From Paludibacteraceae bacterium (lineage in GTDB: Bacteria; Bacteroidota; Bacteroidia; Bacteroidales; Paludibacteraceae), in contig JAKSNH010000005.1 in the NCBI GenBank assembly GCA_024399955.1, positions 1-64,000 on the forward strand: a stretch of DNA of 64,000 nt, written 5' to 3'. Position 1 is the stretch's first letter; each line of letters begins with the position of its first letter. Below are positions 8,739 through 57,406 of the stretch, one piece after another. A program made the translations under genes and the position numbers. The notes below the pieces were generated by a model that saw only the letters and a list, made by a program, of their open reading frames with translations, did not search any database and had not been told where the DNA came from.

Positions 8739-10271
8739 ATGAAGACAGTATTTTTAACCGGTGCAACCGGCACCATGGGCGGAGCAGGATTACAGGAGTT
8801 ATTGCGTTATCCGGACCAATACAAAGTGCGTGTATTGGCTCGTCCCAGTCAAAAGAACAAAGCTAAATTAGCAGTTTATGCCAACCAGATTGAGATTGTT
8901 TGGGGTGATTTAACCAAATACGAAGATGTCTTAAAAGGCGTAACCGGCAGTGATGTTGTCTTGCACGTTGGCGGTATGGTCAGTCCCCAAGCGGACTACC
9001 GACCAACCCAAACCCGCAAGACCAATTTGACAGCAGCCAAGAATATCCGTGATGCGGTATTGGCGCAGCCGATTGATAAGCAACCCAAGGTGATTTATAT
9101 CGGTAGTGTAGCCCAGATGGGAGACCGTCGCGAACCTCTGCATTGGGGACGTACCGGCGACCCCATTTGCGTAAGTGCTTATGACCACTACGGTATCACT
9201 AAGGCTATGGCCGAGCGTATTATTACCAACTCACCCATCAAGCATTGGGTTAGTCTGCGTCAGTCCGGTATTTTGTACCCTGCTATTTTGAAGAACTACG
9301 ATCCGATTATGTTCCATGTACCTATTCGTGGTGTCTTGGAATGGGCAACAGTGGAAGATAGTGGCCGTTTATTAGAGCGTTGCTGCCGTGACAATGTCCC
9401 GGAGGAGTTTTGGAAACGTTATTATAACATCGGTTCGGGCGAACAATACCGTTTGAGCAACTACGAGTTTGAATGTCTATTACTGAATGCCATCGGTTGT
9501 CCCAAGCCGGAGAAGATCTTCGATAGCAACTGGTTCACGACCCGCAATTTCCATGGTATGTGGTATTTAGATGGTGATGTATTGGAGAACTACATGCATT
9601 TCCGCGCCAATGTACCTGTTAAGGAATACTTCAAACAGATGGCCAAGAGTGATACCCTGCCCGGTGGCCTTAAGTTTGCTGTTCGCAGCAAATTGGTTTA
9701 TCTAAGTCACCTGGTTCCTCATATCGTCAAATTAGCCATGAAAGCGATGGCGATGAGCAAGGAGCATGGTACGCAGTGGTGGATTAAGAATAACAAGGAA
9801 CAACGTATTCACGCTTACTATGGCAGTTTAGAGGCATACAAGGCTATTCGTCCCTGGAGCGAGATGGACCTGAGCCACAACAGCGAACAAGCCGTTATCT
9901 TGAATCACGGATACGACGAGAATAAACCGATGTCCGAGTTCACCATTGAAGATATGCAGCAAGTGGCAGCCTTCCGTGGAGGTAAATGTCTGAGCACGCA
10001 AATGGTTAAGGGCGATTGGGACACTCCGCTGCAATGGCAATGTGCACAAGGACATGTCTTTACGGCTACTCCGAGGCTGATTCTATTGGGCGGTCACTGG
10101 TGCCCGGATTGTTTCCCCAATCCTTACAAAGATGAACCCAATGCTCGTCCTTGGGCTTGGGACAAAGAGTCCAAACGCAATCCTTTCTTTGCGCAGTTAT
10201 GGGCTCCGTTGCATGACAAAGACGAAGACAACGAATACGGACCGGAGATATTTGACGGATGGGAAAGTTAG
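8739..10271 (+). CDS. NAD-dependent epimerase/dehydratase with C-terminal zinc-ribbon domain
   Basis: A 510-residue protein. The N-terminal Rossmann half has GATGTMGGAG as the dinucleotide loop and an extended-SDR YxxxK active site in HYGITKA. It is of the NAD(P)-dependent sugar-nucleotide or sterol-like epimerase/dehydratase class. After about residue 330 comes a further domain not found in ordinary SDRs. It ends in a CxxxH...CPDC arrangement (QCAQGHVF then HWCPDCF), which looks like a treble-clef or zinc-ribbon module. The substrate is unknown. The gene starts 3 bp after the antiporter stop and is followed by a 40-bp spacer made of 7-bp repeats before ftsH. Confidence 0.8.
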   Translation: MKTVFLTGATGTMGGAGLQELLRYPDQYKVRVLARPSQKNKAKLAVYANQIEIVWGDLTKYEDVLKGVTGSDVVLHVGGMVSPQADYRPTQTRKTNLTAAKNIRDAVLAQPIDKQPKVIYIGSVAQMGDRREPLHWGRTGDPICVSAYDHYGITKAMAERIITNSPIKHWVSLRQSGILYPAILKNYDPIMFHVPIRGVLEWATVEDSGRLLERCCRDNVPEEFWKRYYNIGSGEQYRLSNYEFECLLLNAIGCPKPEKIFDSNWFTTRNFHGMWYLDGDVLENYMHFRANVPVKEYFKQMAKSDTLPGGLKFAVRSKLVYLSHLVPHIVKLAMKAMAMSKEHGTQWWIKNNKEQRIHAYYGSLEAYKAIRPWSEMDLSHNSEQAVILNHGYDENKPMSEFTIEDMQQVAAFRGGKCLSTQMVKGDWDTPLQWQCAQGHVFTATPRLILLGGHWCPDCFPNPYKDEPNARPWAWDKESKRNPFFAQLWAPLHDKDEDNEYGPEIFDGWES

Positions 10272-10310
10272 TGTTTAGAGTTTAGAGTTTAGTGTTTAGT
10301 GTTTTAGAGT
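10272..10310 (+). repeat. Heptanucleotide repeat filling the epimerase-ftsH spacer
   Basis: The spacer is almost entirely built of 7-bp units of the forms GTTTAGA and GTTTAGT, about five copies. The unit contains a TAG stop. Confidence 0.85.
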
Positions 10311-10311
10311 T

Positions 10312-26921: not shown

Positions 26922-28118
26922 TTATTTCAACGATACAATTCTTTTGGCAGCGGTGGCGGCGGCAGGATAGCACCCCAAGATAGAGCGTATCTCATCATAG
27001 TCCGCAAGCATCTGTTGGCGATAGGGTTCATCCGTCAGCAAGCGAGTGAGTTCAGTCACAATCTTAGCCTTGGTGAAATTGAACGCAATGAGTTCCTTAA
27101 TCACCTCGCGCGCGGGCACGATATTAACTAAGGTGAAGAAAGGTATCTTGAAAATAAACGGTTTGAGCCACCCTAACCATTTAGAACAAGCAATATAATA
27201 AACAGCCGTTTGAGGACAATTAAGCAGAGCCGTCTCCAACGTAGCAGTTCCTGAATTAACGATAGCAGCCTTAGCATGAGTGACTAACTGATAGGTATCA
27301 CGAGTGAGTTGCTCGCCCTGCAAGTAAGGAGCATAGAAAGAATCCTCGATGCCGGGGGCAGCAGCGACGGTAATGGTGGTGAGAGGTTGCAGGTGACAGG
27401 TTGCAGGTGACAGGTTGCAGGTGACAGGTTGCAGGTTGCAGGTTGCAGATTCAGCACTACGAAGGACTTCTCTTGCGGCGGCGAGCATAGTAGGTAGGCA
27501 GTGCTTGATTTCGCTGCGACGACTACCGGGGAGAAGGGCGATAATATTGGTGATTGGTGATTGCTGATTGCTGATTGCTGATTGCTGATTAATGCTTGAT
27601 GATTGGTACTCGCGGATGGAGTCCATGGTGGGATTGCCGACATACTCGCAGCAATAGCCATACTTGGCATAGAAAGTCGATTCAAAGGGGAAGATACCCA
27701 GCACCAGGTCGGACAGTCGTGCAATCTTATGAATACGGAACGTCTTCCATGCCCACACCTTAGGCGGGATATAGTAAACAATCTTCGTTTGTGGCAAGTT
27801 AGTCTTGCAGAACTGCGCTATCTTGAGATTAAAAGATGGATAGTCAATCAGCACCAGCACATCGGGACGTTCATCGAGTAATCCCTGCTCGGCAATGCGG
27901 AAATTCTCACGTATCTTCTTCAGATTAGCCAACACCGCGATGACTCCCATAAAGGCCATATTACGATAGTGCTGCAATAAACGGCAACCGGCATCACACA
28001 TTTTATCTCCACCCAAGCCCACGAACGTAGCCTCAGCGTCCTCCTGTTGCAGAGCACGTATCAGATTAGAGGCATGTAAATCGCCGGACGCCTCACCGGC
28101 AAGAAGGAAGTATTTCAT
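26922..28118 (-). CDS. lpxB: Lipid-A-disaccharide synthase LpxB with in-frame repeat inserts
   Basis: LpxB joins UDP-diacylglucosamine and lipid X to form lipid A disaccharide at the inner membrane. Family stretches include MKYFLLAGEASGDLHASNLI at the start, YYIPPKVWAWKTFRIHKI, LLPGSRRSEIKHCLP, and NSGTATLETALLNCPQ. I chose the ATG at 28118 from the family N-terminus. Two stretches are not family sequence: residues about 171-189 (INQQSAISNQQSPITN) and about 223-244 (heptapeptides CNLQPVT, CNLSPAT, CHLQPLT). Both are encoded by tandem 7-bp repeats on the DNA. The second lies between the LLPGSRRSEIKHCLP stretch and the TITVAAAPG stretch. Confidence 0.95.
   Translation of the reverse strand: MKYFLLAGEASGDLHASNLIRALQQEDAEATFVGLGGDKMCDAGCRLLQHYRNMAFMGVIAVLANLKKIRENFRIAEQGLLDERPDVLVLIDYPSFNLKIAQFCKTNLPQTKIVYYIPPKVWAWKTFRIHKIARLSDLVLGIFPFESTFYAKYGYCCEYVGNPTMDSIREYQSSSINQQSAISNQQSPITNIIALLPGSRRSEIKHCLPTMLAAAREVLRSAESATCNLQPVTCNLSPATCHLQPLTTITVAAAPGIEDSFYAPYLQGEQLTRDTYQLVTHAKAAIVNSGTATLETALLNCPQTAVYYIACSKWLGWLKPFIFKIPFFTLVNIVPAREVIKELIAFNFTKAKIVTELTRLLTDEPYRQQMLADYDEIRSILGCYPAAATAAKRIVSLK
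27385..27449 (-). repeat. Heptanucleotide array GGTTGCA/GGTGACA inside lpxB
   Basis: Nine 7-bp units in plus orientation alternate between GGTTGCA and GGTGACA. On the coding (minus) strand the units TGCAACC and TGTCACC are free of stops in all three frames, so the array translates as heptapeptide repeats. Confidence 0.9.
27550..27605 (-). repeat. Heptanucleotide array TGATTGC inside lpxB
   Basis: Eight units in plus orientation, mostly TGATTGC with TGATTGG at both ends. On the coding strand they are GCAATCA, stop-free, giving NQQSAIS and NQQSPIT. Confidence 0.9.
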
Positions 28119-28428: not shown

Positions 28429-29197
28429 ATAAGGTCATATCAATCGTGCAAGGCTGAATGGATAATAATCCATGCTCCAATGCATAATTATCTGTATCCT
28501 CCGCATCCGGTTCATCATTCACCATATAGCCGGATAACGTATAAGCCGTTTCACCATTGTCCATCGTAAACGGTTTCATCTCTTTCTCCCAATGCGCCTT
28601 CCCTTGTCTTGTCCAACGAACGCCCTGAATAGGTCCCTTGGGAGCGTTGACGTTGAGAATAGTGATGGTGTTGACAGGTGACAGGTGACAGGTGACAGGT
28701 GGCAGGTGACAGGTGACAGTATCGGAGAGGATGGTGTCGATGTGGGGGTCCATGAAGGAGAAGTCGGCATCGGCACTTAAATCGTCAATCGAGAAGCCAA
28801 TGGCCGGAATACCATGTTCTCCTGCCACAAAGCATGCACCCATCGTGCCGGAATAAATGAGATTGATGCCGGCATTGGAACCATGATTGATACCACTCAC
28901 CACCAAATCAATCTTAGAAGCATCACCATTGAAGAGCACATTGATTGCCAACTTGACGCAGTCGCTGGGGGTACCGTTGGTGATGTAAACATCCAAGGAT
29001 GGAGAGTTGAGCGTTGAGAGTTGAGAGTTTATTTTACGCAGGGTAATCGGCTGAGTCACCGTAATGGCATTACTCATGCCACTTCGTGGACCGTCAGGCA
29101 CAACCACCGTGACATGCCCTAATGGAAGCAAGTGCGGAAGCAAGGTCATCAAGCCCTTTGAGCCCCATCCGTCATCGTTGGTAAGGAGGATATTCAT
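28412..29197 (-). CDS. surE: 5'/3'-nucleotidase SurE with in-frame repeat inserts
   Basis: SurE is a metal-dependent phosphatase acting on nucleoside monophosphates and possibly polyphosphate. MNILLTNDDGWGSKGL carries the DD metal-binding pair, and VSGINHGSNAGINLIYSGTMGA is the second family block. Two stretches are encoded by tandem repeats: residues about 56-65 (NSQLSTLNS) and about 159-175 (the array at 28672-28720, TCHLPPV and TCHLSPV). Both break otherwise typical sequence between conserved blocks. The predicted protein is 261 residues, close to the family length. Confidence 0.95.
   Translation of the reverse strand: MNILLTNDDGWGSKGLMTLLPHLLPLGHVTVVVPDGPRSGMSNAITVTQPITLRKINSQLSTLNSPSLDVYITNGTPSDCVKLAINVLFNGDASKIDLVVSGINHGSNAGINLIYSGTMGACFVAGEHGIPAIGFSIDDLSADADFSFMDPHIDTILSDTVTCHLPPVTCHLSPVNTITILNVNAPKGPIQGVRWTRQGKAHWEKEMKPFTMDNGETAYTLSGYMVNDEPDAEDTDNYALEHGLLSIQPCTIDMTLYAALR
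28672..28720 (-). repeat. Heptanucleotide array TGACAGG inside surE
   Basis: Seven 7-bp units: TGACAGG in five of them, with TGGCAGG at position 5 and TGACAGT last. On the coding strand these are CCTGTCA, stop-free in all frames. Confidence 0.9.
29002..29029 (-). repeat. Heptanucleotide array GAGAGTT inside surE
   Basis: Four units, GAGAGTT, GAGCGTT, GAGAGTT, GAGAGTT. On the coding strand the unit AACTCTC is stop-free and encodes NSQLSTLNS. Confidence 0.75.
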
Positions 29198-32586: not shown

Positions 32587-33624
32587 ATGGCAAGAACAGA
32601 GATTTCCACACTGGGAGAGTTTGGTTTAATACGTCATTTAACCGATAAACTTCCCTTACAGCAACCATCTACTAAGAAAGGCATTGGCGACGATGCCGCA
32701 GTTATGCAATTTGGCAGCAAACGAACCTTGATGACTACCGATCTTCTCTTAGAAGGTATTCATTTTAATTTAGAGTATGTGCCCCTCAAGCACCTTGGTT
32801 ACAAGGCAGTGGCTGTCAACCTATCGGACATCTATGCCATGAATGGCACACCGACACAGATTACCGTCTCTTTAGGTGTTTCTGCACGATTTAGCGTGGA
32901 AGACCTTGAAGAACTATACGCAGGCATGCGCCTTGCGTGCGAAAAATATAAGGTAGATCTGGTAGGCGGAGACACCTCGGCCAGCATGACCGGTTTGACG
33001 ATCAGCATTACCTGCTTGGGAATAGCCAATGACAAGGATATCGTTTATCGCAATGGAGCTAAAGTGAATGACCTTATCTGTGTTTCCGGCAACTTAGGAA
33101 CGGCTTATATGGGATTACAACTGCTGGAGCGTGAGCGCATTGCACATTCTCATCAAGATGCTCAACCGGAAAGTATTCCTGCCTTTGAGGGCCGCGAATA
33201 TCTATTGGAACGGCAACTCAAGCCCGAACCACGTCAAGACATCATCGATAAACTGCGCGAAGCCGGTATCCGTCCCACAGCCATGATGGATATCAGTGAT
33301 GGTTTGAGCAGCGAAATCAAGCATATCTGCCATCAATCTAATGTAGGCTGTGCCATCTATGAGGATAAGATTCCTATTGATTTTGTGGCAGCCGAAGTGG
33401 CAGAAGAGATGAACCTGAATATTGTCACCTGTGCCCTGAATGGCGGCGAAGATTACGAACTACTCTTCACGTGCGACCTCAAGGATTACGAAAAATTAGT
33501 GGGCATTGAGGATGTTTATATCGTTGGTCATATCACCAAACCTGAGTTTGGCACTATGCTGATTGGACGCAATGGCGAAGAATTAGAGTTGCAAGCCCAA
33601 GGTTGGCAAGCATTCAAGAGTTAA
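32587..33624 (+). CDS. thiL: Thiamine-monophosphate kinase ThiL
   Basis: A 345-residue AIR-synthase/GHMP-like kinase that phosphorylates thiamine monophosphate to the diphosphate. EISTLGEFGLIRHLTDKL, GIGDDAAVM, the metal block TTDLLLEGIHFNLEY, LSDIYAMNGTP and LVGGDTSAS are family motifs, with MMDISDGLSSEIKHIC further on. The start at 32587 is chosen because the preceding codons overlap the promoter. It is followed by a 51-bp spacer filled with 7-bp repeats before a glycosyltransferase gene. Confidence 0.95.
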   Translation: MARTEISTLGEFGLIRHLTDKLPLQQPSTKKGIGDDAAVMQFGSKRTLMTTDLLLEGIHFNLEYVPLKHLGYKAVAVNLSDIYAMNGTPTQITVSLGVSARFSVEDLEELYAGMRLACEKYKVDLVGGDTSASMTGLTISITCLGIANDKDIVYRNGAKVNDLICVSGNLGTAYMGLQLLERERIAHSHQDAQPESIPAFEGREYLLERQLKPEPRQDIIDKLREAGIRPTAMMDISDGLSSEIKHICHQSNVGCAIYEDKIPIDFVAAEVAEEMNLNIVTCALNGGEDYELLFTCDLKDYEKLVGIEDVYIVGHITKPEFGTMLIGRNGEELELQAQGWQAFKS

Positions 33625-33675
33625 GAGTTAAGAGTTAAGAGTTAAGAATTAAGAATTAAGAGTTAAGAGTTAAGA
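33625..33675 (+). repeat. GAGTTAA/GAATTAA heptanucleotide array in the thiL-glycosyltransferase spacer
   Basis: About eight units, nearly all GAGTTAA with two GAATTAA. The array begins over the thiL stop codon and runs to the next ATG. Each unit carries a TAA stop. Confidence 0.9.
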
Positions 33676-34836
33676 ATGAATATCACCATTTTAGGCACCG
33701 CTCACCCTTATCGAGGTGGTCTTGCCACCTTTAATGAACGTCTGGCTCGGCAGTTTCAGGACGAAGGACATGATGTACAAGTCATCACTTTCACGCTGCA
33801 GTATCCCTCTTTCCTTTTCCCCGGTAAGACGCAATACACCAATGACCCTGCGCCTAAGGATTTATCCATACAACGCGCCCTTAATTCCTGCAATCCCTTC
33901 AACTGGCTTCGCCTTGGGCATCAACTGCGTCGGGAACAACCGGACCTGCTGATTTGCTGCTATTGGATGGCTTTCTTTGCTCCTGCCTATAGCACCATCT
34001 GCCGCATTGTTAAGCGCAATCACAAGACCCGTTGCATCGCCTTGGTGCATAATATGTTCGGGCATGAAAAGAGTATATTAGACAAACTCTTTGCTCCGTG
34101 TTTTGTGCGCAGTCAAGACTCCTTTGTCACCCTCAGCGATGCTGTTGCCAAAGACATCAAGGCTCTACACTCTACACTCTACACTCTAAACTCTAAACAG
34201 CAACCACAGGTTGCCGTTTCCCCCCACCCCATCTATGACCATTACGGAGAACGTATGAATAAAGAGGAGGCATGTGAGGCATTGGGATTAGATCCGACGA
34301 AGAAATATATCCTTTTCTTTGGACTTGTTCGTGCCTACAAGGGGCTGGATCTGCTCTTAGATGCTATGGAAAAGATTAAAGACACGCAACCCGATATCCG
34401 TCTGTTGGTGGCCGGCGAGTTTTACGAGAATGAAGCGACTTATTTGCAACAAATCGAACGCAATGGCATTGCGGACCGCGTTATTCTACGAAACGAATTT
34501 ATTCCGGATGCCGATTTACGCAAGTACTTCGGTGCAGCAGACCTGATTGTGCAACCCTATAAGTCCGCCACACAAAGTGGTGTCACGCAGGTTGCCTTCC
34601 ATTTTGAAAAGCCTATATTAGTGACTAATGTAGGTGGATTGGGAGAGATTGTGCATCATGGTAAGATGGGTTATGCCGTTGTGCCGGATAGTCAAGAGAT
34701 TGCTGAAAGCATCGAGGATTATTTCCGCCACAATCGTCAACCAGCCTTCACCACTTACCTCCAAAAAGAGAAAGTCAAATACGGCTGGGATAGAATGACA
34801 AAAGCCTTCCTATCGTTGCATATAAGATTTGTTTAA
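33676..34836 (+). CDS. GT4-family glycosyltransferase with a repeat-encoded insert
   Basis: A 386-residue GT-B fold glycosyltransferase of family 4. The N-terminal GTAHPYRGGLATFNERLARQ and the C-terminal FGLVRAYKGLDLLLDAM, IVQPYKSATQSGVTQVAFHFEKPILVTNVGGLGEIV are typical, the latter covering the sugar-nucleotide binding region. The sugar is unknown. Residues about 162-174 (LHSTLYTLNSKQQ) are encoded by a 7-bp array at 34163-34197, between the N- and C-terminal halves. It ends the plus-strand unit starting with thiL. Confidence 0.88.
   Translation: MNITILGTAHPYRGGLATFNERLARQFQDEGHDVQVITFTLQYPSFLFPGKTQYTNDPAPKDLSIQRALNSCNPFNWLRLGHQLRREQPDLLICCYWMAFFAPAYSTICRIVKRNHKTRCIALVHNMFGHEKSILDKLFAPCFVRSQDSFVTLSDAVAKDIKALHSTLYTLNSKQQPQVAVSPHPIYDHYGERMNKEEACEALGLDPTKKYILFFGLVRAYKGLDLLLDAMEKIKDTQPDIRLLVAGEFYENEATYLQQIERNGIADRVILRNEFIPDADLRKYFGAADLIVQPYKSATQSGVTQVAFHFEKPILVTNVGGLGEIVHHGKMGYAVVPDSQEIAESIEDYFRHNRQPAFTTYLQKEKVKYGWDRMTKAFLSLHIRFV
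34163..34197 (+). repeat. Heptanucleotide array CTCTACA inside the GT4 gene
   Basis: Five units, three CTCTACA followed by two CTCTAAA. CTCTACA is stop-free in all frames; CTCTAAA is not, but the reading frame used here avoids its TAA. Confidence 0.9.
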
Positions 34837-41184: not shown

Positions 41185-41682
41185 ATGAGAGCACTTTCAG
41201 ATATTAAACTTTTTTTGACCGACGTGGATGGTTGTTTGACCGACGGCGGTATGTATTACTCCGCAGGAGGAGACGAGATGAAACGCTTTTGCGTATATGA
41301 TGGTATGGGCATTGTGCAATTGCGCAAGGCTGGTATTCGTGTTGGTATTCTCACAAGTGAGACGACAGAGATAGTAGCCCGTCGTGCTCGCAAACTGAAC
41401 TTAGACTACCTTTACATGGGTGTAGGCAGTCAAGTTAAGCAGGGCGTGCAAACCAAGTTAGAGACCTGTCAACAGATTTGTGCCGAAATGGGAATCGGAC
41501 TCCATCAGGTTTGTTACGTGGGAGATGATATCAACGATATCGACCTGCTGCAGGCTGTTGGTGTAGCGGCATGTCCTCCCAATGCTCGCCCACAGGTGAA
41601 GGCCATTCCGGGTATTCTGCAATTAAAGACTCCGGGCGGTCAAGGGGCTATTCGTGAGTTATGTGATATGATCTTATCATGA
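41185..41682 (+). CDS. kdsC: KdsC-like HAD phosphatase (3-deoxy-D-manno-octulosonate 8-P phosphatase)
   Basis: A 165-residue HAD-superfamily phosphatase. The N-terminal nucleophile motif is FLTDVDGCLTDGG, motif II lies in VGILTSETTE and motif III-IV is YVGDDINDIDLL; GGQGAIRELCDMIL ends the family. KdsC removes phosphate from KDO-8-P on the way to lipopolysaccharide inner core. Related NeuA-associated phosphatases look similar, but the isolated gene without a cytidylyltransferase favours KdsC. It overlaps rlmI by 4 bp. Confidence 0.88.
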   Translation: MRALSDIKLFLTDVDGCLTDGGMYYSAGGDEMKRFCVYDGMGIVQLRKAGIRVGILTSETTEIVARRARKLNLDYLYMGVGSQVKQGVQTKLETCQQICAEMGIGLHQVCYVGDDINDIDLLQAVGVAACPPNARPQVKAIPGILQLKTPGGQGAIRELCDMILS

Positions 41683-42893
41683 CAACTATTATATTAAAAC
41701 CACATAAAGAAGAGTCGCTTAAACGTTTTCATCCTTGGGTTTTCTCGGGAGCTATTGGACGTGTCGTATTGGACAAGGATTACCCTTTTGATAGTCCTCA
41801 AGAGGGGGAAGTGGTTCTTGTGACCGATGCCAATAATCAGCCTTTGGGTGTAGGGCATTATCAGGTTGGTTCGATTGCCGTTCGGATGTTGGAGTTTGGA
41901 GTTACTACCCTGCCCCGCGACTTTTATGAACAACGCATTGCTGCTGCCTATCGTTTTAGAAAGGACTTGCAGTTGATTCGCAAAGACAATAACACCTATC
42001 GACTCATACATGGCGAAGGCGACTTCCTGCCGGGATTGGTGGTAGATATCTATGCTGATACCGCAGTTGTGCAGGCCCATTCGGTTGGCATGCATCTGGT
42101 GCGTGAAGAGATAGCAAATGCCATCGTAAAAGAAGTGAAAGAGGTGAAGAATGTGTACTATAAATCGGATGACACGTTACCTTTCAAAGCACCTATCACA
42201 GGAGATAAGGTGGGATACTTGATTGACGCAAACGAGAACGTTAACGTTGACGAAGGATTTTGGAGCAAGGAGAATGGGTTGGAGTTTAGGATAGATTGGT
42301 TGCGGGGACAGAAGACGGGATTCTTTGTGGACCAGCGTGAGAACAGAGCCTTATTGGAGCATTATGCCAAAGGCAAAGAAGTGCTGAATATGTTCTGTTA
42401 CACCGGCGGATTTAGCGTATATGCTCTTCGCGGTGGAGCCAAGATGGTTCATTCGGTCGATGTAAGTGAAAAAGCCGTGGAGTTAGTTCGCAAGAACGTG
42501 GAACGTAATTTCCCAGATTGCACCCATCACGAAGCCTTTGCTCAGGAAGCATTTGCTTTTATGGCCGATATAAAAGATAAGTACGACCTGATTATCCTGG
42601 ATCCTCCGGCTTTTGCCAAGCACCGGGATGCCATCAAGAACGCGCTGCGCGGTTATCAGCGGCTCAACCAAAAGGCGATTGAGCAGATTCGTCCGGGAGG
42701 TATTTTATTCACCTTCTCTTGTTCGCAGGCGATTGATAAGGAGATGTTCCGTTTAGCAGTCTTTAGTGCAGCCGCAGCAGTAGGCAGAAAGGTGCGTATC
42801 CTGCATCAACTTCATCAACCGGCTGACCATCCCATCAATATCTATCACCCCGAAGGTGAGTACTTAAAAGGGCTGGTTTTGCAAGTAGAATAA
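41679..42893 (+). CDS. rlmI: RlmI-like 23S rRNA (cytosine-C5) methyltransferase
   Basis: A 404-residue class I SAM methyltransferase. An N-terminal PUA domain (VFSGAI...) is followed by a Rossmann domain with VLNMFCYTGGFSVYALRGGA (SAM binding) and IILDPPAFAKHRDAI, and the catalytic CSQAIDKE. Members methylate C1962 of 23S rRNA or related positions. Residues about 183-193 (ANENVNVDEG) come from a degenerate 6-bp array (42225-42258) between the PUA and methyltransferase domains. It ends the unit that starts with ispD. Confidence 0.9.
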   Translation: MTTIILKPHKEESLKRFHPWVFSGAIGRVVLDKDYPFDSPQEGEVVLVTDANNQPLGVGHYQVGSIAVRMLEFGVTTLPRDFYEQRIAAAYRFRKDLQLIRKDNNTYRLIHGEGDFLPGLVVDIYADTAVVQAHSVGMHLVREEIANAIVKEVKEVKNVYYKSDDTLPFKAPITGDKVGYLIDANENVNVDEGFWSKENGLEFRIDWLRGQKTGFFVDQRENRALLEHYAKGKEVLNMFCYTGGFSVYALRGGAKMVHSVDVSEKAVELVRKNVERNFPDCTHHEAFAQEAFAFMADIKDKYDLIILDPPAFAKHRDAIKNALRGYQRLNQKAIEQIRPGGILFTFSCSQAIDKEMFRLAVFSAAAAVGRKVRILHQLHQPADHPINIYHPEGEYLKGLVLQVE

Positions 42894-42953
42894 CCCCTCC
42901 GACAAGCAAAATCTGCTACAAAAAGCAAAAAAAACGAAAAAAGTTGCACAAAA

Positions 42954-42986
42954 TATTGGATATATCACATATTATTTGTAATTTTG
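42954..42986 (+). promoter_or_regulatory. Promoter of hipBA
   Basis: TATTGG (42954-42959) and TAATTTTG (42979-42986) are spaced close to the consensus. The -33 element is weak, as expected for a self-repressed TA promoter. Confidence 0.5.
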
Positions 42987-42996
42987 CAGCGTAATT

Positions 42997-43008
42997 ATAG
43001 ATATATCT
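42997..43008. promoter_or_regulatory. Palindrome TAGATATATCTA, candidate HipB operator
   Basis: A perfect 12-bp palindrome lies between the -7 element and the hipB ATG. A related GATATATCACATAT half-site lies further upstream. Binding by HipB is inferred from position only. Confidence 0.5.
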
Positions 43009-43013
43009 AATAT

Positions 43014-43355
43014 ATGACACAAGATTTATACAGTTGGACAGATACTGCCATCGTACGTTCAATTGGACAAAAAATCAAGAATGTACGCATTGCTAAAAAG
43101 CTCACGCAAGCGCAACTTGCGAAACATTGTGGTCTTTCCGCTTTCTCTATCAGCCAGATTGAGAATGGTCACAATACGAGTTTATTAAGCCTTGTAATGA
43201 TTTTACGTTGTTTACAGCGATTGGACCTATTGGAAACATTAACACAAGAGGAAGCAATTAATCCTCTTGCAATAATTGAGTACCAAAAGAAACATCCTCG
43301 ACGTCAGCGCGTCACGAATGGAATTGTTAAACCTAAGCAAGAATCAGAATGGTAG
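43014..43355 (+). CDS. hipB: HipB-like antitoxin (Xre-family HTH)
   Basis: A 113-residue protein with an Xre-type helix-turn-helix at about residues 20-70 (IKNVRIAKKLTQAQLAKHCGLSAFSISQIENG). It lies directly before hipA and overlaps it by 7 bp. HipB neutralises the HipA kinase and represses the operon. Confidence 0.88.
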   Translation: MTQDLYSWTDTAIVRSIGQKIKNVRIAKKLTQAQLAKHCGLSAFSISQIENGHNTSLLSLVMILRCLQRLDLLETLTQEEAINPLAIIEYQKKHPRRQRVTNGIVKPKQESEW

Positions 43356-44635
43356 CAGCAGAGATTTTTTTATGGGGCAAACGTTTAGGAGCCATCATTT
43401 GGAATGAAAGTAAAGGTATTTCATCATTTGTATATGATGATGATTTCTGCCAACAGGGAATAGAGCCATCTCCATTGATGATGCCTATTGCATCGAATAC
43501 GCCTTATGAGTTTCCCGGGCTTAATCATGACACATTTATGGGGTTGCCCGGATTGCTAGCAGATGCCCTTCCTGATGCGTTTGGTAAGGCATTACTGGAT
43601 CGTTGGCTCACCAGTGTAGGTCGTCGTTTTGCCAATCCCGTAGAACGCCTGTGCTATCAAGGTTCTCGCAGCATGGGTGCATTAGAGTTTGCACCTGCGT
43701 ACGCCCCATATTTGGAGCAGTCAACTCGTTTGGAAATGGATGCCTTGGTAGCGATTGCTCATGAAGTGCTGACGCAGAAAGCAGAACTCAATGTCAATAT
43801 AAATGACGACAAACGCGAAGCTATTGCCAATATCATTAAAGTCGGCACATCTGCCGGAGGGCAGCGTGCTAAAGCCGTCATTGTTTACAATGACGCAACG
43901 GGCGAAGTCCGTTCCGGACAGTTAGATGCGCCCGAAGGATTTGATTATTGGTTACTCAAGTTAGATGGCGTCACCAATAAGCAATTAGGCGACCCCCAAC
44001 ACTTTGGAGAAATTGAATATATTCATTATCTGATGGCACGAGAGGCGGGCATCAACATGACCGAATGCCGTCTATTGCATGAGAATAATCGCGCACACTT
44101 TATGACCCGTCGTTTTGACCGAGTGAATGGGGAGAAGGTACACATGCAAACACTATGCGGATTAGCACATTATGATTACAAGATGCTACATGCTTATTCC
44201 TACGAACAAGCATTTCAAGTCATGCGCCGTTTACACTTACCTTATCCGGAAGCCGAAGAATTCTATCGCCGAATGGTCTTTAATGTCGTAGCTTGCAACC
44301 AAGATGATCACACTAAGAATATCTCATTCTTGATGGATAAGAAAGGTACATGGTTCTTATCTCCTGCATACGATATGTCTTGGTCATATAATCCGGAAGG
44401 AGACTGGACCTCCCGTCATCAAATGTCTATCAACAACAAGTGGATTGACATCACTCGTGCAGACCTATTGGAAGTGGCACGGCAGATGAACATCAAGCAC
44501 GCCCCTGCTATTATTGACAAGGTGGTAGAAGCAGTCAGTCGCTGGACCACCCTCGCCTCCGAGTACGAAATAGATACAGAGGTTGTTAAGTACATAGAAC
44601 AGACACATAATTACCTGCCCAAGGACAGCATTTAA
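43349..44635 (+). CDS. hipA: HipA-like serine/threonine kinase toxin
   Basis: A 428-residue full-length HipA. The active site NQDDHTKNISF has Asp319/Asp320, followed by the metal-binding region AYDMSWS (LSPAYDMSW). The N-terminal FLWGKRLGAIIW and GLPGLLADALPDAFGKALLDRW, and HFMTRRFDRV in the middle, are family blocks. HipA phosphorylates glutamyl-tRNA synthetase in E. coli, halting translation and giving persistence. No truncation is seen, so it looks functional. Confidence 0.92.
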   Translation: MVAAEIFLWGKRLGAIIWNESKGISSFVYDDDFCQQGIEPSPLMMPIASNTPYEFPGLNHDTFMGLPGLLADALPDAFGKALLDRWLTSVGRRFANPVERLCYQGSRSMGALEFAPAYAPYLEQSTRLEMDALVAIAHEVLTQKAELNVNINDDKREAIANIIKVGTSAGGQRAKAVIVYNDATGEVRSGQLDAPEGFDYWLLKLDGVTNKQLGDPQHFGEIEYIHYLMAREAGINMTECRLLHENNRAHFMTRRFDRVNGEKVHMQTLCGLAHYDYKMLHAYSYEQAFQVMRRLHLPYPEAEEFYRRMVFNVVACNQDDHTKNISFLMDKKGTWFLSPAYDMSWSYNPEGDWTSRHQMSINNKWIDITRADLLEVARQMNIKHAPAIIDKVVEAVSRWTTLASEYEIDTEVVKYIEQTHNYLPKDSI

Positions 44636-44658
44636 GAAGTCAATTAACTGCCTCGGTT

Positions 44659-44746
44659 TACTATTTCGTGCAGTTTAGAAGTGCCAAATCTTACTATTTT
44701 GTGCAGTTTAGAGGTACCAAATCTTACTATTTTGTGCAGTTTAGAA
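44659..44746 (-). repeat. 33-bp tandem repeat (2.7 copies) after hipA
   Basis: The unit (TACTATTTTGTGCAGTTTAG at its start) repeats with a period of exactly 33 bp at 44659, 44692 and 44725. Read on the minus strand each unit encodes LHKIVRFGTSK, so the 11-codon unit stays open, ending in a stop near 44641. No start or longer ORF is present. It may be a coding remnant. Confidence 0.8.
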
Positions 44747-44765
44747 TGATTTTTTTGCTTATTTA

Positions 44766-44797
44766 TTTGCATATATCAAATAAAAAGTGTAATTTTG
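44766..44797 (+). promoter_or_regulatory. Promoter of the DUF4268 gene
   Basis: TTTGC (44766-44770) and TAATTTTG (44790-44797) have consensus spacing. The ATG follows at 44848. Confidence 0.65.
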
Positions 44798-44847
44798 CTA
44801 GAAATTAAAAAACTACAACATGACCGAATGAACAAAAAATATTTAAT

Positions 44848-45810
44848 ATGGCACAATTAGGAAGAATTCAGAAAGTAGAATTACGAGACTACTGGAAAAA
44901 GGAGGACAAGGATTTTACCCCGTGGCTTGCAAAAGAAGAAAACATTCAATTACTATCTGAGACGATAGGAATTGATTTGGAAGTTATCGCACAAGAACAA
45001 AATGTAGGTCCTTTCCGTGCAGATATTTTGTGTAAGGATGTGGCAACAGACCAATACGTGTTGATTGAAAATCAGTTAGAAATGACCGACCACACTCATC
45101 TAGGACAAATTATGACTTATGCCGCAGGATTAAACGCAGTAACCATTATTTGGATTGCTCGCAAATTTGATGATGAGCATCGTGCTGCATTGGATTGGCT
45201 CAATCGTATTACGGATACGACTTTTAATTTTTTTGGTATTGAAGTTGGCTTGGTTAAAATCGGTGACTCATTAGCAGCACCTATTTTTGACATTGTAGCA
45301 CAACCAAATGATTGGTCTAAAACAGTTAAAGAATCTACGAAAAATAGCGTAAATGGGGAATTAACAGACATTAAAAAAGCACAATTGAATTATTGGAATG
45401 AATTTACCGACTATGCTCGTCAAACAGGTAAGGCCAATTTTAGTTTGCAAAAAGGACTTCCACAACATTGGTTTAATGTTTCCGTTGGTAAATCATATTT
45501 CAACATTTCTTTAGCAGTTAATTCACAAAAGAACTTTATTCGTGTAGGACTGGATGTATTAGGAGAGCGTGCTAAAGATAACTTTCGCTTTTTAAAGGAA
45601 CAATATGAAGAGGAATCACGCAAGGAAATTTCTGAAAAAATAGAATGGTATATTTTGGAAGATAAAAAGCAATCATATATTGGTGTTCAGACTCCTTATG
45701 ATTTTCTTGATGCATCTACTCGTAAACAACAATTTGAATGGTTAATAGACACCACCAATCGTTTTGTTGCGTTCTTCAAGCCAAAAGTTCGAAATCTCCA
45801 AGTTCAATAA
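44848..45810 (+). CDS. DUF4268 protein with PD-(D/E)XK-like nuclease N-terminus
   Basis: A 320-residue protein. The N-terminal half fits a restriction-endonuclease-like fold: FRADILCK with Asp59 and then VLIENQLE with Glu74 and Gln76, a D-ExQ variant of the PD-(D/E)XK core, followed by HTHLGQIMTYAAGL. The C-terminal half (from about 165) matches DUF4268. Such genes occur as single-gene accessory elements and are thought to act in defence or mobile DNA biology. It is directly downstream of hipBA, with its own promoter. Confidence 0.8.
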   Translation: MAQLGRIQKVELRDYWKKEDKDFTPWLAKEENIQLLSETIGIDLEVIAQEQNVGPFRADILCKDVATDQYVLIENQLEMTDHTHLGQIMTYAAGLNAVTIIWIARKFDDEHRAALDWLNRITDTTFNFFGIEVGLVKIGDSLAAPIFDIVAQPNDWSKTVKESTKNSVNGELTDIKKAQLNYWNEFTDYARQTGKANFSLQKGLPQHWFNVSVGKSYFNISLAVNSQKNFIRVGLDVLGERAKDNFRFLKEQYEEESRKEISEKIEWYILEDKKQSYIGVQTPYDFLDASTRKQQFEWLIDTTNRFVAFFKPKVRNLQVQ

Positions 45811-45818
45811 CTCTATTA

Positions 45819-45855
45819 TACCGATAAGCACACGACTTAAACATTACTCAAAAAC
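45819..45855 (+). repeat. 37-bp direct repeat, left copy (5' of DUF1016 gene)
   Basis: Identical to 47161-47197, including ACCGATAAGCACACGACTTA. The two copies bracket the DUF1016 gene and are 1342 bp apart. Confidence 0.9.
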
Positions 45856-45894
45856 GACTTAGAAACAAGAAGCAATAAAAATCAACTAGTAATT

Positions 45895-47106
45895 ATGGGC
45901 ACTAAAAAAACAATATTGCCAACGCCTCTGGCTAATTCAACAAATGAAACGTACATATATCACGATGCCGTTCAAACTATCAAACAAGCCATATTAGAGG
46001 GGCAATACGAAGCAGCAAAGGGGGTCAACCGCATTCAGTTAGCCGTTTACTTTGCTATCGGCAAATATATATCTCTGCACACACGCAAAGACAAGTGGGG
46101 CACTCATGCTTTGGAGTTCATAAGTGCCCAACTGCGTCGTGAGTTACCCGGCTTGCGTGGTTTCTCGGAGACACAGTTGAGGGAAATGCGCTTGTTTTAT
46201 GAGGGCTGGATTATGTTAGATGCAAATTCGTCGGTTGCAACCGATGAATTACAAAATGCTGATAATGAGTGTGTTTTAGATTTATCGGTTGCGACCGATG
46301 AATTGATAGATGTTCATCATGCCATTACAATTAGTGACTTAGATTTCCCATTAGAAGAATTCTTTAAAGTACCTTTTACACACCATTCTCGTATCTTGGC
46401 AAATGCTAAAGATTCACAAACACGTTACTATTACATCCACCGTGTAGCTGAAGAACATTTATCTATTTCACAACTCAAACAATTGATGAAAGATGAGGCA
46501 CACAAACATCAAGGCGACATGCCCAATAATTTTGTCAAGACTATTAGCGATACGCGTAGTGCCCGAAAAGCAGTAATGATGTTCAAAGATGAATACTTGC
46601 TCAATTTTATCAATGTAGAAGAAATAGGCGAACGCGAACAGATAGATGTAGATGAACGAGTTATAGAACAAAAGATTATTGGTAACATCAAAAACTTTAT
46701 TCTAACATTCGGTTCCGATTTTGCATTTATAGGTAATCAATATCATTTGGAAGCGTATGGCGTAGAGCAATTTCCCGATTTATTGTTCTTTAATAGGGAA
46801 CTAAATGCTTTAGTAGTTATTGAACTCAAGTATGGGGATTTCAAAACGTCGTATTTGGGACAATTGATGGGATATCTACGCATTATTGATGATCATGTCC
46901 GCAAACCCCACGAAAATCCAACTATCGGAATAGTGCTATGTAAGAGTGCAAATAAAGAATTTGTTGAATATGTAATTCAGGACTATAACAAGCCGATGGG
47001 AGTTGCCACCTATAAGACATTGGATGATATGCCAGAGTCTATACGTAAAGCACTACCCAATAACGAACAACTACAACAACTTTTATCTCCTGATTCCAGT
47101 TTATGA
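45895..47106 (+). CDS. DUF1016 (YhcG-like) PD-(D/E)XK nuclease
   Basis: A 403-residue protein of the YhcG/DUF1016 family. The N-terminal DUF1016_N domain starts after residue 25 (IKQAILEGQYEAAKGVNRIQLAVYF). The C-terminal nuclease has Asp295 (FPDLLFFN) and Glu310-Lys312 (VVIELKYGDF). In between, the linker has two SVATDEL repeats at residues about 113 and 131. The family is found next to restriction systems and defence genes and is thought to be a structure-specific or phage-directed nuclease. Flanking 37-bp direct repeats suggest the gene is a discrete cassette. Confidence 0.9.
   Translation: MGTKKTILPTPLANSTNETYIYHDAVQTIKQAILEGQYEAAKGVNRIQLAVYFAIGKYISLHTRKDKWGTHALEFISAQLRRELPGLRGFSETQLREMRLFYEGWIMLDANSSVATDELQNADNECVLDLSVATDELIDVHHAITISDLDFPLEEFFKVPFTHHSRILANAKDSQTRYYYIHRVAEEHLSISQLKQLMKDEAHKHQGDMPNNFVKTISDTRSARKAVMMFKDEYLLNFINVEEIGEREQIDVDERVIEQKIIGNIKNFILTFGSDFAFIGNQYHLEAYGVEQFPDLLFFNRELNALVVIELKYGDFKTSYLGQLMGYLRIIDDHVRKPHENPTIGIVLCKSANKEFVEYVIQDYNKPMGVATYKTLDDMPESIRKALPNNEQLQQLLSPDSSL
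46231..46304 (+). repeat. Palindromic TCGGTTGCAACCGATGAATT pair inside the DUF1016 gene
   Basis: Two copies 54 bp apart (46231-46250 and 46285-46304) encode SVATDEL twice. The core TCGGTTGCAACCGA is palindromic; the second copy has one change (GCG). Confidence 0.75.
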
Positions 47107-47160
47107 CCTCTCAACAATATAATAATGGTACGGTAACGGTAGGTTGAACTACCGATATAC

Positions 47161-47197
47161 TACCGATAAGCACACGACTTAAACATTACTCAAAAAC
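47161..47197 (+). repeat. 37-bp direct repeat, right copy (3' of DUF1016 gene)
   Basis: Identical to 45819-45855. It leads into the phased A-tract region before the gene at 47306. Confidence 0.9.
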
Positions 47198-47300
47198 AAC
47201 CTAAAAACGACTTAAAAACGTCCAAAAAACAACTCAAAAACAACCTAAAAACGACTTAAACACTACTCAAAAACGACTTAATCTAAACATAAAAACAACA
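47191..47300 (+). repeat. Phased A-tracts, about 11-bp period
   Basis: A5-type tracts start at about 47192, 47203, 47214, 47224, 47236, 47247, 47258 and 47269, so the period is close to one helical turn. The shared unit is AAAAAC(A/G)AC. This implies intrinsic DNA curvature upstream of the 47306 gene. Confidence 0.8.
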
Positions 47301-47305
47301 AAAAC

Positions 47306-47815
47306 ATGGCAAAGGTAAAACCAATCAGTATCATACAGAGCATGTCTGGTAAGAGTGCAACAGGCAGCGACATTGCGTATACTACAAAAAAATCTACCGG
47401 AGATACCTTCACGAAGAAAATCGGTCAACGCGACTTTGAACAGCATCCTGTTACAGACAGAGAAATAGCCACTCATCAAAAGATGCATGATGCCACAGCA
47501 GCATATCATGAGATAAAGCAACACCCTGAGCAATACCAACAATTGGTACAACACTACCAAGAAGCAAAAGCTAAAGGGTTTCAACAAGATATATATCGAT
47601 TCTTCCTACATGAGTTTTTAGACGAGGGGAAGAATAGTATCGTCACCAAGATTGCCAAGGGTAAAAGTAGCGAGGATAGTTATGCGCAAGGTATGTTACG
47701 TTGCCACAACCGCGAAGAAGCAGACAAATTGCTGCTGGAGTTTATAAGAACACTCGGATATAACAAATTAGCCGACGCATACGAAAAGATAGTAACTTTA
47801 TATAGACATTCATGA
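47306..47815 (+). CDS. Hypothetical protein of 169 residues
   Basis: I do not recognise the whole protein. The N-terminal part (KPISIIQSMSGK) resembles a small Bacteroidota family of unknown function. The C-terminal part is helical and charged (ADKLLLEFIRTLGYNKLADAYEKI). Its stop codon overlaps the start of the polysaccharide pyruvyl transferase gene by 4 bp, so it may be translated with the polysaccharide locus, but its composition fits the accessory genes upstream. It follows the phased A-tracts. Confidence 0.6.
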   Translation: MAKVKPISIIQSMSGKSATGSDIAYTTKKSTGDTFTKKIGQRDFEQHPVTDREIATHQKMHDATAAYHEIKQHPEQYQQLVQHYQEAKAKGFQQDIYRFFLHEFLDEGKNSIVTKIAKGKSSEDSYAQGMLRCHNREEADKLLLEFIRTLGYNKLADAYEKIVTLYRHS

Positions 47816-54908: not shown

Positions 54909-57406
54909 TGTTTGCGAATCTTCTTTTTATAGATATATCCACCTATTGTTCCTATTAGGACAAGCACGAATAAAGCGAAACAACTTACGGCTAATGTATT
55001 GCCTTTCTTCACGCTATCCGGTTCGAAGGTCATCACGATGTCATGTCGTCCGGCAGGGATATTAACGGCACGCAACATATAGTTGACGCGATAGATATCG
55101 GTCGGTTCTCCATCAATGGTGCATTTCCATCCATAAGGATAGTATATTTCAGAGAAGACAGCCAGTCGCTCTTGCTGCGTTTGTGCCTCATAAACGAGTT
55201 TATTCGGAGCGTAAGATATAAGGTTGATGATTGCTTCATCCAAGTCTTCGCCGTCGGTTCGCCGTCGGTTCGCCGTCGGTAAAGACCCGGCTAAGTCCTG
55301 CATTGAGATTCGGTTCGGAGCGTAGGTAGTATCCATAACAGCCACGCGACGCAGGTCAATTGTGTTGAGCGCATCGGATTCGGCATTGGCATTATCTACA
55401 TAATACATCTCATCTACGAACCACGCATTACCTAAAGCATCCGGATTGAGGTATGGGAAAGGTTGACCATTCTGTCCTTTTGAGATGATGTACTTAGCAT
55501 TAAGCATATTCAATACCGGCATGTGCATCTTGCTGATATGTTCGTCTATCAAATCCTGATAACGACGCAGTTTAGCTGCCGAATAGCCACCAATGGACTT
55601 AAGGTAATACGAGGTGCGGGCATCGTTGAAGGTATTAGCCGTTAGATTCAGTACACGGTAGTAAGACGGATCACTTGCTAACAAGTCCTTTTCGTAGGGT
55701 AGCATCTTAAATGCCTTGTCACGCTCTTTTGCAGAAACAAAATTGCTATCATTGCAGAAACGTTTATCAACCGTCCACATATCTGCCACAATCAGCGCCG
55801 TTAAGATAAGTCCAAGATACTGCACTTTGAAGTTCTTGCGCATATACATCCAAATCACCGCCGCAGCGAGTAAGATGAAGATAAACGAACGCCACGCATC
55901 AGCCTGAATCATGGCAGTACGCTGATCCAGAATCATTTGATAAATCTCGTTTCCTACTTGTCCTTTCCACTGTGCATCGTATGAGGAGACAGGATTAGAC
56001 CCTCCAAAGAGTGCCATAATGAGGCAAATACCTGCGGTAATGCCTGCGGCAATAAGAATAGGATGAGCCCCCTTCCGACTTCCCCTTATAGGGGAAGAGG
56101 TGAGTTGTTGCAAGGCAAGGAAGCCCAACAGGGGCATCGTTATTTCAGCCACAATAAGGATAGACTCTACTGCACGGAACTTGTTGTACATTGGGAAGTA
56201 TTGGAAAAACAATTCCGTCAACGACATGAAATTATGTCCCCAACTGAGAGCAACAGAGAAGAGCGTGGCAATGAGCAGCGCCCATTTATATGGTCCGGGA
56301 ACGATAATCAGACCTAAGACAAAGAGGAAACAGATAATGGCTCCCATATAGACGGGTCCGGAAGTAAAGGCTTTCTCTCCCCAATAAGTAGGAGCAGATT
56401 GGCAGAACTGTTTAGCCGAGCCTCTTGGCACGCGTGCTTTCACCAATTCCTCGTATAGGACGGACTTTTCGCCGACGTTATACCCCGATGCGCCTCCCAT
56501 ATAGTTAGGAATAAGGAAAGTCATCGTTTCATTTATGCCATAACTCCATGCCGTAGCATAGTCGAGGTCAAGTCCTTCGGTTTTGTTGGTTGCATCATTG
56601 GTCTTCACCAAATCGGAATGTCCTCCTCGCATGGTTTGTTCGGCGTACTCCTTATTGACAAATATATTTCCAGACCCCATCCCCATACCAATCGCGAAGG
56701 ATGCAAAGAAAATGAGTGTTGCTACAATAAAGTGTTTCCATTCTTTGGCTTTGGCAGCAATAGCCAATTCGGCAAAGAACAAAATTCCTATCAGCATGCA
56801 GATGTAGTAACTCATCTGGGGGTGCAAGAAGAAGCCAATATACGTGAAGAACATAATGAGCAAGGCTCCCCAAGCATACTGTTTTCGGTAGGTTAGGATA
56901 AAGCCAACAATAACCAACATCATCCATGTAATGGAATAGCACTTACCATGGTGTTGCGCAGCAATGATAACAAAGAAATAGCTGCTGAGGGCCGTAGCAA
57001 AAGCGCCGGCCATAGATAGCCATTTATCTACCTTAAAAGAGCGCAATAATAGGAAGAACGCGCAGAGATAGAAGAGGAAGATAAAGACCATATTACGTGT
57101 TCCCCAAGCGAAGAACCACTTGAGGGGCTTCATAATATGATCCACTACAAATCCTCCATTCCCGCCAATTTGGTAGTTAGGCATTCCGGAGAACATAGAA
57201 CCGGTCCAATAGGTATAATCCCCTGTTGTTTTGTGAAATTCGGAACTCTCGTGAACAGCGGCAAGACCATTGATGTTATCTCCGGCATAAATAACTTTTC
57301 CTTGCAACGCAGGCCAAAAATAAATGGCAGAAGCCAATAAAAAGATGACAAAAATAACACAATGGGGAAGTATTTTCTTCCACGTACTCTGTAGATTATT
57401 ATTCAT
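54905..57406 (-). CDS. YfhO-family membrane glycosyltransferase-like protein with repeat inserts
   Basis: An 833-residue protein with 12 or more membrane segments and an extracytoplasmic region near the C-terminus. IYAGDNINGLAAVHESSEFHKTTGDYTYWTGSMFSGMPNYQIGGNGG at the N-terminus is the YfhO pattern; related Gram-positive proteins add sugars to teichoic-type polymers. Two in-frame oddities: an 11-bp triplicated repeat (55247-55279; NRRRTDGE region) in the C-terminal domain and an inverted repeat (56080-56098; SSPIRGSRKGAHP) in a loop between membrane segments. It overlaps the MerR gene by 4 bp. Confidence 0.85.
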   Translation of the reverse strand: MNNNLQSTWKKILPHCVIFVIFLLASAIYFWPALQGKVIYAGDNINGLAAVHESSEFHKTTGDYTYWTGSMFSGMPNYQIGGNGGFVVDHIMKPLKWFFAWGTRNMVFIFLFYLCAFFLLLRSFKVDKWLSMAGAFATALSSYFFVIIAAQHHGKCYSITWMMLVIVGFILTYRKQYAWGALLIMFFTYIGFFLHPQMSYYICMLIGILFFAELAIAAKAKEWKHFIVATLIFFASFAIGMGMGSGNIFVNKEYAEQTMRGGHSDLVKTNDATNKTEGLDLDYATAWSYGINETMTFLIPNYMGGASGYNVGEKSVLYEELVKARVPRGSAKQFCQSAPTYWGEKAFTSGPVYMGAIICFLFVLGLIIVPGPYKWALLIATLFSVALSWGHNFMSLTELFFQYFPMYNKFRAVESILIVAEITMPLLGFLALQQLTSSPIRGSRKGAHPILIAAGITAGICLIMALFGGSNPVSSYDAQWKGQVGNEIYQMILDQRTAMIQADAWRSFIFILLAAAVIWMYMRKNFKVQYLGLILTALIVADMWTVDKRFCNDSNFVSAKERDKAFKMLPYEKDLLASDPSYYRVLNLTANTFNDARTSYYLKSIGGYSAAKLRRYQDLIDEHISKMHMPVLNMLNAKYIISKGQNGQPFPYLNPDALGNAWFVDEMYYVDNANAESDALNTIDLRRVAVMDTTYAPNRISMQDLAGSLPTANRRRTDGEDLDEAIINLISYAPNKLVYEAQTQQERLAVFSEIYYPYGWKCTIDGEPTDIYRVNYMLRAVNIPAGRHDIVMTFEPDSVKKGNTLAVSCFALFVLVLIGTIGGYIYKKKIRKQ
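55247..55279 (-). repeat. 11-bp tandem repeat TTCGCCGTCGG (3 copies) inside yfhO
   Basis: Three perfect copies (33 bp, 11 codons) keep the frame open and encode part of the region ANRRRTDGED. Confidence 0.9.
56080..56098 (-). repeat. Palindrome CTTCCCCTTATAGGGGAAG inside yfhO
   Basis: A perfect inverted repeat (CTTCCCCT / AGGGGAAG) lies in frame within a membrane-protein loop. It resembles intergenic palindromic repeats of Bacteroidota. Confidence 0.75.

Follow-up and report, generated by a model that had tools for sequence, protein, structure and literature searches.

The DUF1016 gene at positions 45895 to 47106 of the analyzed window, i.e. the first 64,000 nt of the contig JAKSNH010000005.1 of a Paludibacteraceae bacterium, was probably brought in together with a duplication of its target, and the family seems to do so repeatedly. 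Direct repeats bracket DUF1016 genes in many unrelated bacteria and consist of different DNA each time, which suggests that these genes enter genomes by duplicating their landing spot. Bracketing repeats, the gene architecture, the enrichment of bracketing, one pair of a filled and an empty site, and nearly identical DUF1016 genes at unrelated sites were directly observed. For the window, we favor the reading that the two repeats are one leader, which was duplicated when the DUF1016 gene inserted between a DUF4268 gene and a small gene, and we give it a probability of roughly 0.6.

The gene is located on the forward strand and encodes a protein of 403 aa, which is a member of the DUF1016 / YhcG family and a predicted nuclease. 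The matches to the Pfam families PF06250 (YhcG_C, 154.5 bits) and PF17761 (DUF1016_N, 78.2 bits) were far over the cut-off, the PD-(D/E)XK residues D295, E310, and K312 were conserved in 9 out of 9 aligned sequences, and a PADLOC profile match (E 2e-112) points to the candidate anti-phage defence system PDC-S02. No solved structure of a DUF1016 relative was found. In the excerpts available of the respective publications, the YhcG family is likened to archaeal Holliday-junction resolvases (PMC1189080), COG4804 appears in a table of gene families among the horizontally transferred genes of gut bacteria (PMC10782964), and the YhcG/DUF1016 family is also treated in PMC4316617 and PMC11341870.

The neighbors of the gene are the DUF4268 gene, HipBA, and the small gene, and there is no methylase among them. 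The DUF4268 gene (44848 to 45810, forward strand; PADLOC candidate PDC-S11) would represent the upstream side of the insertion. Its leader at 44658 to 44798, comprising three 33-bp repeats and a promoter-like stretch, shares 91% identity over 141 bp with DNA on contig C106 of the genome G110, and just 3' of that match lies a gene that by its look we take to encode a DNA adenine methylase. The small gene (47306 to 47815, forward strand, 169 aa) did not match any Pfam family and is followed by genes resembling a polysaccharide locus. In the genus, the N-terminal part of about 90 aa of this small-gene family occurs in several copies per genome (26 of 61 genomes with a match), with a maximum of seven in G032.

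The original prediction had described a pair of identical 37-bp direct repeats around the DUF1016 gene, and this proved correct. Exact copies are present at 45819 to 45855 and at 47161 to 47197, both on the forward strand, and, according to the ORF list, the DUF1016 gene is the one long ORF on the same strand between them. A third site did not exist in the window even when up to three mismatches were allowed (expected number 0, 100 shuffles), and the similarity of the two copies extends beyond the 37-mer to 48 nt with 94% identity (45819 to 45866 and 47161 to 47208). It had also been proposed to search for the 37-bp sequence elsewhere. This search yielded no match in viral contigs, and across 360 loci the matches were solely copies of the window's own region. 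The repeat is ordinary leader DNA of the next gene (47306 to 47815) and does not constitute a separate attachment site. Nor does the 37-mer represent the end of a mobile element; the repeats at other bracketed DUF1016 genes are unrelated.

The downstream copy forms the opening part of a leader of 145 bp, which consists of degenerate 11-bp units and ends at the start of the small gene. The degenerate tandem array that makes up the remainder of this leader (47177 to 47299, forward strand) is shortened in the upstream copy by exactly 77 bp, i.e. 7 x 11 bp or seven units, as read from the coordinates, in which position 45856 corresponds to 47275. The far end of the leader is also matched by the upstream intergenic stretch (45832 to 45881 versus 47251 to 47304, 83% identity). 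When the downstream leader was compared with its own 2.02-Mb genome, the best match after itself was the upstream copy (74 bits), and the next-best matches, on contigs C18 (56 bits), C17 (54 bits), C12 (53 bits), and C1 (34 bits), comprised the left part only. In G055, the small gene has a relative (52% identity) with an element of this kind, ...CTACTACCGATGTACTACCGATAAAG..., adjoining its ATG. Because the element lies just before the start codon there, the leader was assigned to the small gene as its presumed owner, and the upstream copy was regarded as the duplicate. We infer that the window locus arose like the family cases described below, by target duplication. The insertion would have duplicated the intergenic leader of the small gene, and newcomer and resident would each have retained a leader. 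The upstream copy would afterwards have lost seven 11-bp units, and later recombination between the leader copies could take the gene out.

The original prediction would lose force if the repeat belonged to a larger family unconnected with the gene, and this turned out to be half true, because the left ~26 bp, CTACTACCGATATACTACCGATAAGCAC, belong to a dispersed family of 11-bp units that is unconnected with DUF1016, whereas the right part is, in the own genome, common to the two copies alone. Sites of the dispersed element were found in the own genome (contigs C18, C17, C12, C1, and C20), in G050 and G100, and in other species of the genus, and a 16-mer of the element was present with at most one mismatch in 13 of 151 genomes, several of which had no sign of the array. 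The other members of the family that were shown part from the leader soon after AAGCAC. The pattern of the 11-bp array matched genome-wide at this locus alone, with 7 matches. In the own genome, the dispersed element also occurs inside two coding sequences (L003 and L004, in both cases near position 1501), where it is read in-frame as LIGSISVVE; the two genes are presumably radical-SAM-like and DsbD-like. In the window, tandem arrays were observed at 10268 to 10311, 27378 to 27448, 27546 to 27605, 28672 to 28719, 33608 to 33677, 47177 to 47299, and 55247 to 55280.

These features have to be weighed for a rather unlikely alternative, namely that each copy is a member of the dispersed 11-bp family in its own right and that the two flank the gene by chance, maybe after gene conversion, in which case they would be uninformative about the arrival of the DUF1016 gene. 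The recurrence of the left ~26 bp at several loci of the own genome, in G050 and G100, and in related species fits this alternative, as do the variation of orthologous sites of the element by whole 11-bp units and the marked excess, over shuffled sequence, of tandem arrays with unit lengths of 7 bp, 11 bp, or multiples of these in the 464 kb that were sampled. However, it leaves unexplained that only the two copies have the right part and the array half in common, that the match of the upstream spacer includes the leader's far end, and that bracketing recurs at DUF1016 genes with unrelated DNA.

The family-wide occurrence of bracketing was quantified in a sample comprising the window, 400 kb more of its own genome, and 60 stretches of relatives. 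The latter were picked by hand: 40 came from the high scorers, for the most part following the ranking but skipping fragments and some second places, and the other 20 had identities near 30%. A gene was called bracketed when the 400 bp upstream and the 400 bp downstream shared a direct repeat scoring 50 bits or more. Genes less than 400 bp from the end of a stretch were dropped, which left 816 of 886 genes for the test, including 60 of 61 DUF1016 genes. Direct repeats bracketed 12 of 60 DUF1016 genes versus 9 of 756 other genes (Fisher p 1.5e-9), and without the window gene the result was closely similar (11 of 59, p 1.1e-8). When only genes with spacers of at least 60 bp on both sides were considered, the respective numbers were 12 of 47 and 7 of 226. 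HipA loci, which were gathered alike, served as a control: 7 of 28 DUF1016 genes were bracketed (2 of the 30 loci were left out due to short flanks), but only 1 of 30 HipA genes (p 0.02). DUF4268 was dropped as a control family, as it was too rare (5 of 178 genomes). A second set contained 80 loci from named genomes of many phyla, from which genes less than 300 bp from the locus end were removed. With repeats of at least 80 bits, 6 of 75 DUF1016 genes and 0 of 268 other genes were bracketed (p 9e-5). Most DUF1016 genes are not bracketed, i.e. 48 of 60 in the genus and 69 of 75 across phyla at the stricter cut. Bracketed genes of other families include ATPase_2, KilA-N, and ORF6N genes (L180 3915 to 5036, L155 7409 to 8233, L161 4711 to 5301, and L184 5956 to 6585), and this mode of bracketing may therefore extend beyond DUF1016.

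The sequences of the repeats are unrelated from site to site, and their lengths range from about 48 to 233 bp. In the genus, repeats were found in G015 (233 bp, 94% identity), G079 (196 bp, 94%), G063 (188 bp, 90%), G029 (93 bp), and G125 (66 bp). Outside the genus, they were present in Parabacteroides massiliensis (140 bp, 96%), an unplaced MAG (106 bp, 100%), Calothrix PCC 7103 (about 174 bp, 90%), and members of the Omnitrophota (187 bp) and the Planctomycetota (206 bp). In P. massiliensis, the final 70 bp of the upstream coding sequence are part of the repeat, the second copy of which starts directly after the stop codon of the DUF1016 gene; in the MAG, the 106 identical bases likewise derive from within the preceding coding sequence. 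The inclusion of the 3'-end of the upstream gene in these two cases argues for target duplication and against a shared promoter. For two of the bracketed cases across phyla (L293 and L329), the adjoining gene is itself DUF1016-like, and duplication of paralogues could thus contribute there.

One pair of genomes contained a filled and an empty version of the same site. In G063, the order is gene A, spacer, DUF1016 gene, spacer, and gene X (start MADLLQTIERYRQLG), while in G058 gene A and gene X are separated by one spacer; gene A presumably encodes a channel of the chloride channel type. The two flanks are 96% and 92% identical between the genomes, and the sole spacer, about 220 bp long, is where both flank matches overlap. 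The pair fits a gain and a loss of the gene alike, and both genomes are drafts, which are 82% and 71% complete. For the DUF1016 gene of G125, a second close empty site was looked for and none was found. In addition, the same DUF1016 gene, with 97 to 98% nucleotide identity, occupies unrelated sites in the genomes G029, G139, and G015, and the gene of G079 has a 97% counterpart at an unrelated site in G171. Other DUF1016 pairs are alike from the start codon until just past the stop codon. Such gene-precise blocks of homology were rejected as proof of a DUF1016-specific cassette, because HipBA, a control matched for ascertainment, has operon-precise blocks. In two HipBA pairs (L245/L247 and L245/L246, 96 to 97% identity), the similarity sets in about 450 bp before hipA and ends with the hipA stop codon, which looks like operon-precise exchange. 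As HipBA blocks are also precise, the case for a cassette rests on the bracketing repeats.

At the window locus, a genome with one copy of the repeat and no gene, which clean deletion of a cassette would leave behind, was not detected. The DUF1016 gene is missing in three relatives. G050 (94% identity) has the counterpart of window positions 41679 to 42893, a gene that we take to be rlmI, and directly behind it, within about 11 bp, a stretch matching 47693 to 47795; window positions 42893 to 47692 are absent, and the small gene is reduced to a C-terminal piece of about 38 codons. In G110, the same gene is followed by HipBA and then by other capsule-like genes, and the DUF4268, DUF1016, and small genes are lacking. 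In G100, the contig ends at the break. Because none of the breaks coincides with the 37-bp repeats, these three loci do not represent the predicted clean empty site. In summary, the claim that the gene is a cassette is supported for the family by the enriched bracketing and the G063/G058 pair, but not for the window's own locus, where a single-copy empty site was not found and the common stretch is only 48 bp long and on its left side consists of a dispersed element.

A further feature of DUF1016 genes is the presence of palindromes within the reading frame. The window gene contains a near-perfect palindrome of 26 bp (46225 to 46250) and a second one of 25 bp (46280 to 46304), and a weak inverted repeat of 18 bp is located in the tail 3' of the stop codon (47137 to 47154). 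At least one palindrome with a score of at least 8 was present at nt 200 to 480 in 109 of 131 DUF1016 ORFs, across phyla. These palindromes are 25 to 35 bp long and have a fixed place in the frame; their sequences vary, but the symmetry is kept. Arm positions 1 to 7 showed all four Watson-Crick pair types, and the positions further out to 9 showed three or four of them. The percentage of paired positions is inflated because the windows were chosen as the best palindromes, whereas the clustering, with 170 of 186 such palindromes located in the third or fourth tenth of the ORF, is not. Synonymous shuffling reduced the mean best palindrome score from 9.92 to 6.51 for 130 DUF1016 ORFs, compared with 6.49 to 6.33 for 130 control ORFs. 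The yhcG gene of E. coli K-12 has three palindromes in the frame and one just 3' of the stop codon (L350 6129 to 6233 and 6969 to 6995). In the accessible parts of literature naming COG4804, PF06250, "YhcG family", DUF1016, or YhcG together with palindromic, no description of the intragenic palindromes was found. They are a concrete candidate for a substrate or control element of an enzyme family of unknown function.

The palindromes raise the question of whether the nuclease mobilizes its own gene. It is possible, though unlikely in our view, that DUF1016 genes are self-mobilizing single-gene elements across phyla, that the nuclease recognizes the palindromes in its own gene, and that gain of the gene duplicates the target boundary. 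If true, the fast-changing palindromes, with symmetry conserved and sequence free, would be built into the coding sequence of the nuclease, each pair of nuclease and palindrome would constitute a private, co-evolving specificity, and duplication of the target boundary would let resident genes keep their signals. A related reading, in which a homing-like or cruciform-cutting enzyme uses the palindromes as recognition sites that drive copying into gene boundaries, seems quite improbable. It would agree with the PD-(D/E)XK domain and its conserved D-ELK residues, the published comparison with archaeal Holliday-junction resolvases (PMC1189080, excerpt), the palindromes found in 109 of the 131 ORFs, whose symmetry is preserved through compensating changes, and the bracketing across phyla. 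However, the 300-bp flanks of 93 DUF1016 genes did not contain a copy of the palindrome at 75% identity or more, and no solved structure of a relative was found. As none of the palindromes recur in these flanks, they were also rejected as marks of insertion ends. Movement by a composite transposon or an IS-like mechanism, in which the 37-bp repeat would be the element end or a target-site duplication, is hardly conceivable and already contradicted: one gene bracketed by direct repeats would fit, but the only long same-strand ORF between the repeats is DUF1016, a transposase is missing from the ORF list, and the repeats of about 48 to 233 bp are unrelated between sites.

If target duplication is indeed the mode of entry, it would explain how DUF1016 genes enter operon-dense genomes without cutting neighbors from their promoters. 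Not all family members conform to this scheme. The yhcG gene of E. coli K-12 belongs to the same YhcG/DUF1016 family, yet, unlike the window gene, it was not bracketed by repeats in the stretch that was read. In most E. coli genomes, it is located at a single position, and it was dropped as a polymorphic case due to this single conserved, unbracketed site. Integron gene cassettes resemble DUF1016 units in being units of a single reading frame with differing neighbors; in contrast to integron cassettes, a common 3' attachment sequence was not noticed among the DUF1016 units. Insertion with long target duplication was reportedly described by Nobusato et al. in 2000 for restriction-modification genes of Helicobacter pylori. 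The available excerpts of two publications treat this mode for the same genes (PMC3031569, PMC1643837). In contrast to that system, the insert here is a lone DUF1016 nuclease gene and not a restriction-modification system, the duplicated DNA is mostly spacer between genes, and several phyla are involved. If true, our reading would mean that a mode of gene gain described for restriction-modification systems also applies to a very common family of nucleases that occur as lone genes and are functionally uncharacterized. A related genome that is free of the insert and has one copy, as in the H. pylori system, was found here for the G063/G058 pair, but not for the window locus. The two cases have in common long direct repeats of variable length that derive from the target, i.e. 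48 bp with 94% identity in the window and 66 to 233 bp in relatives.
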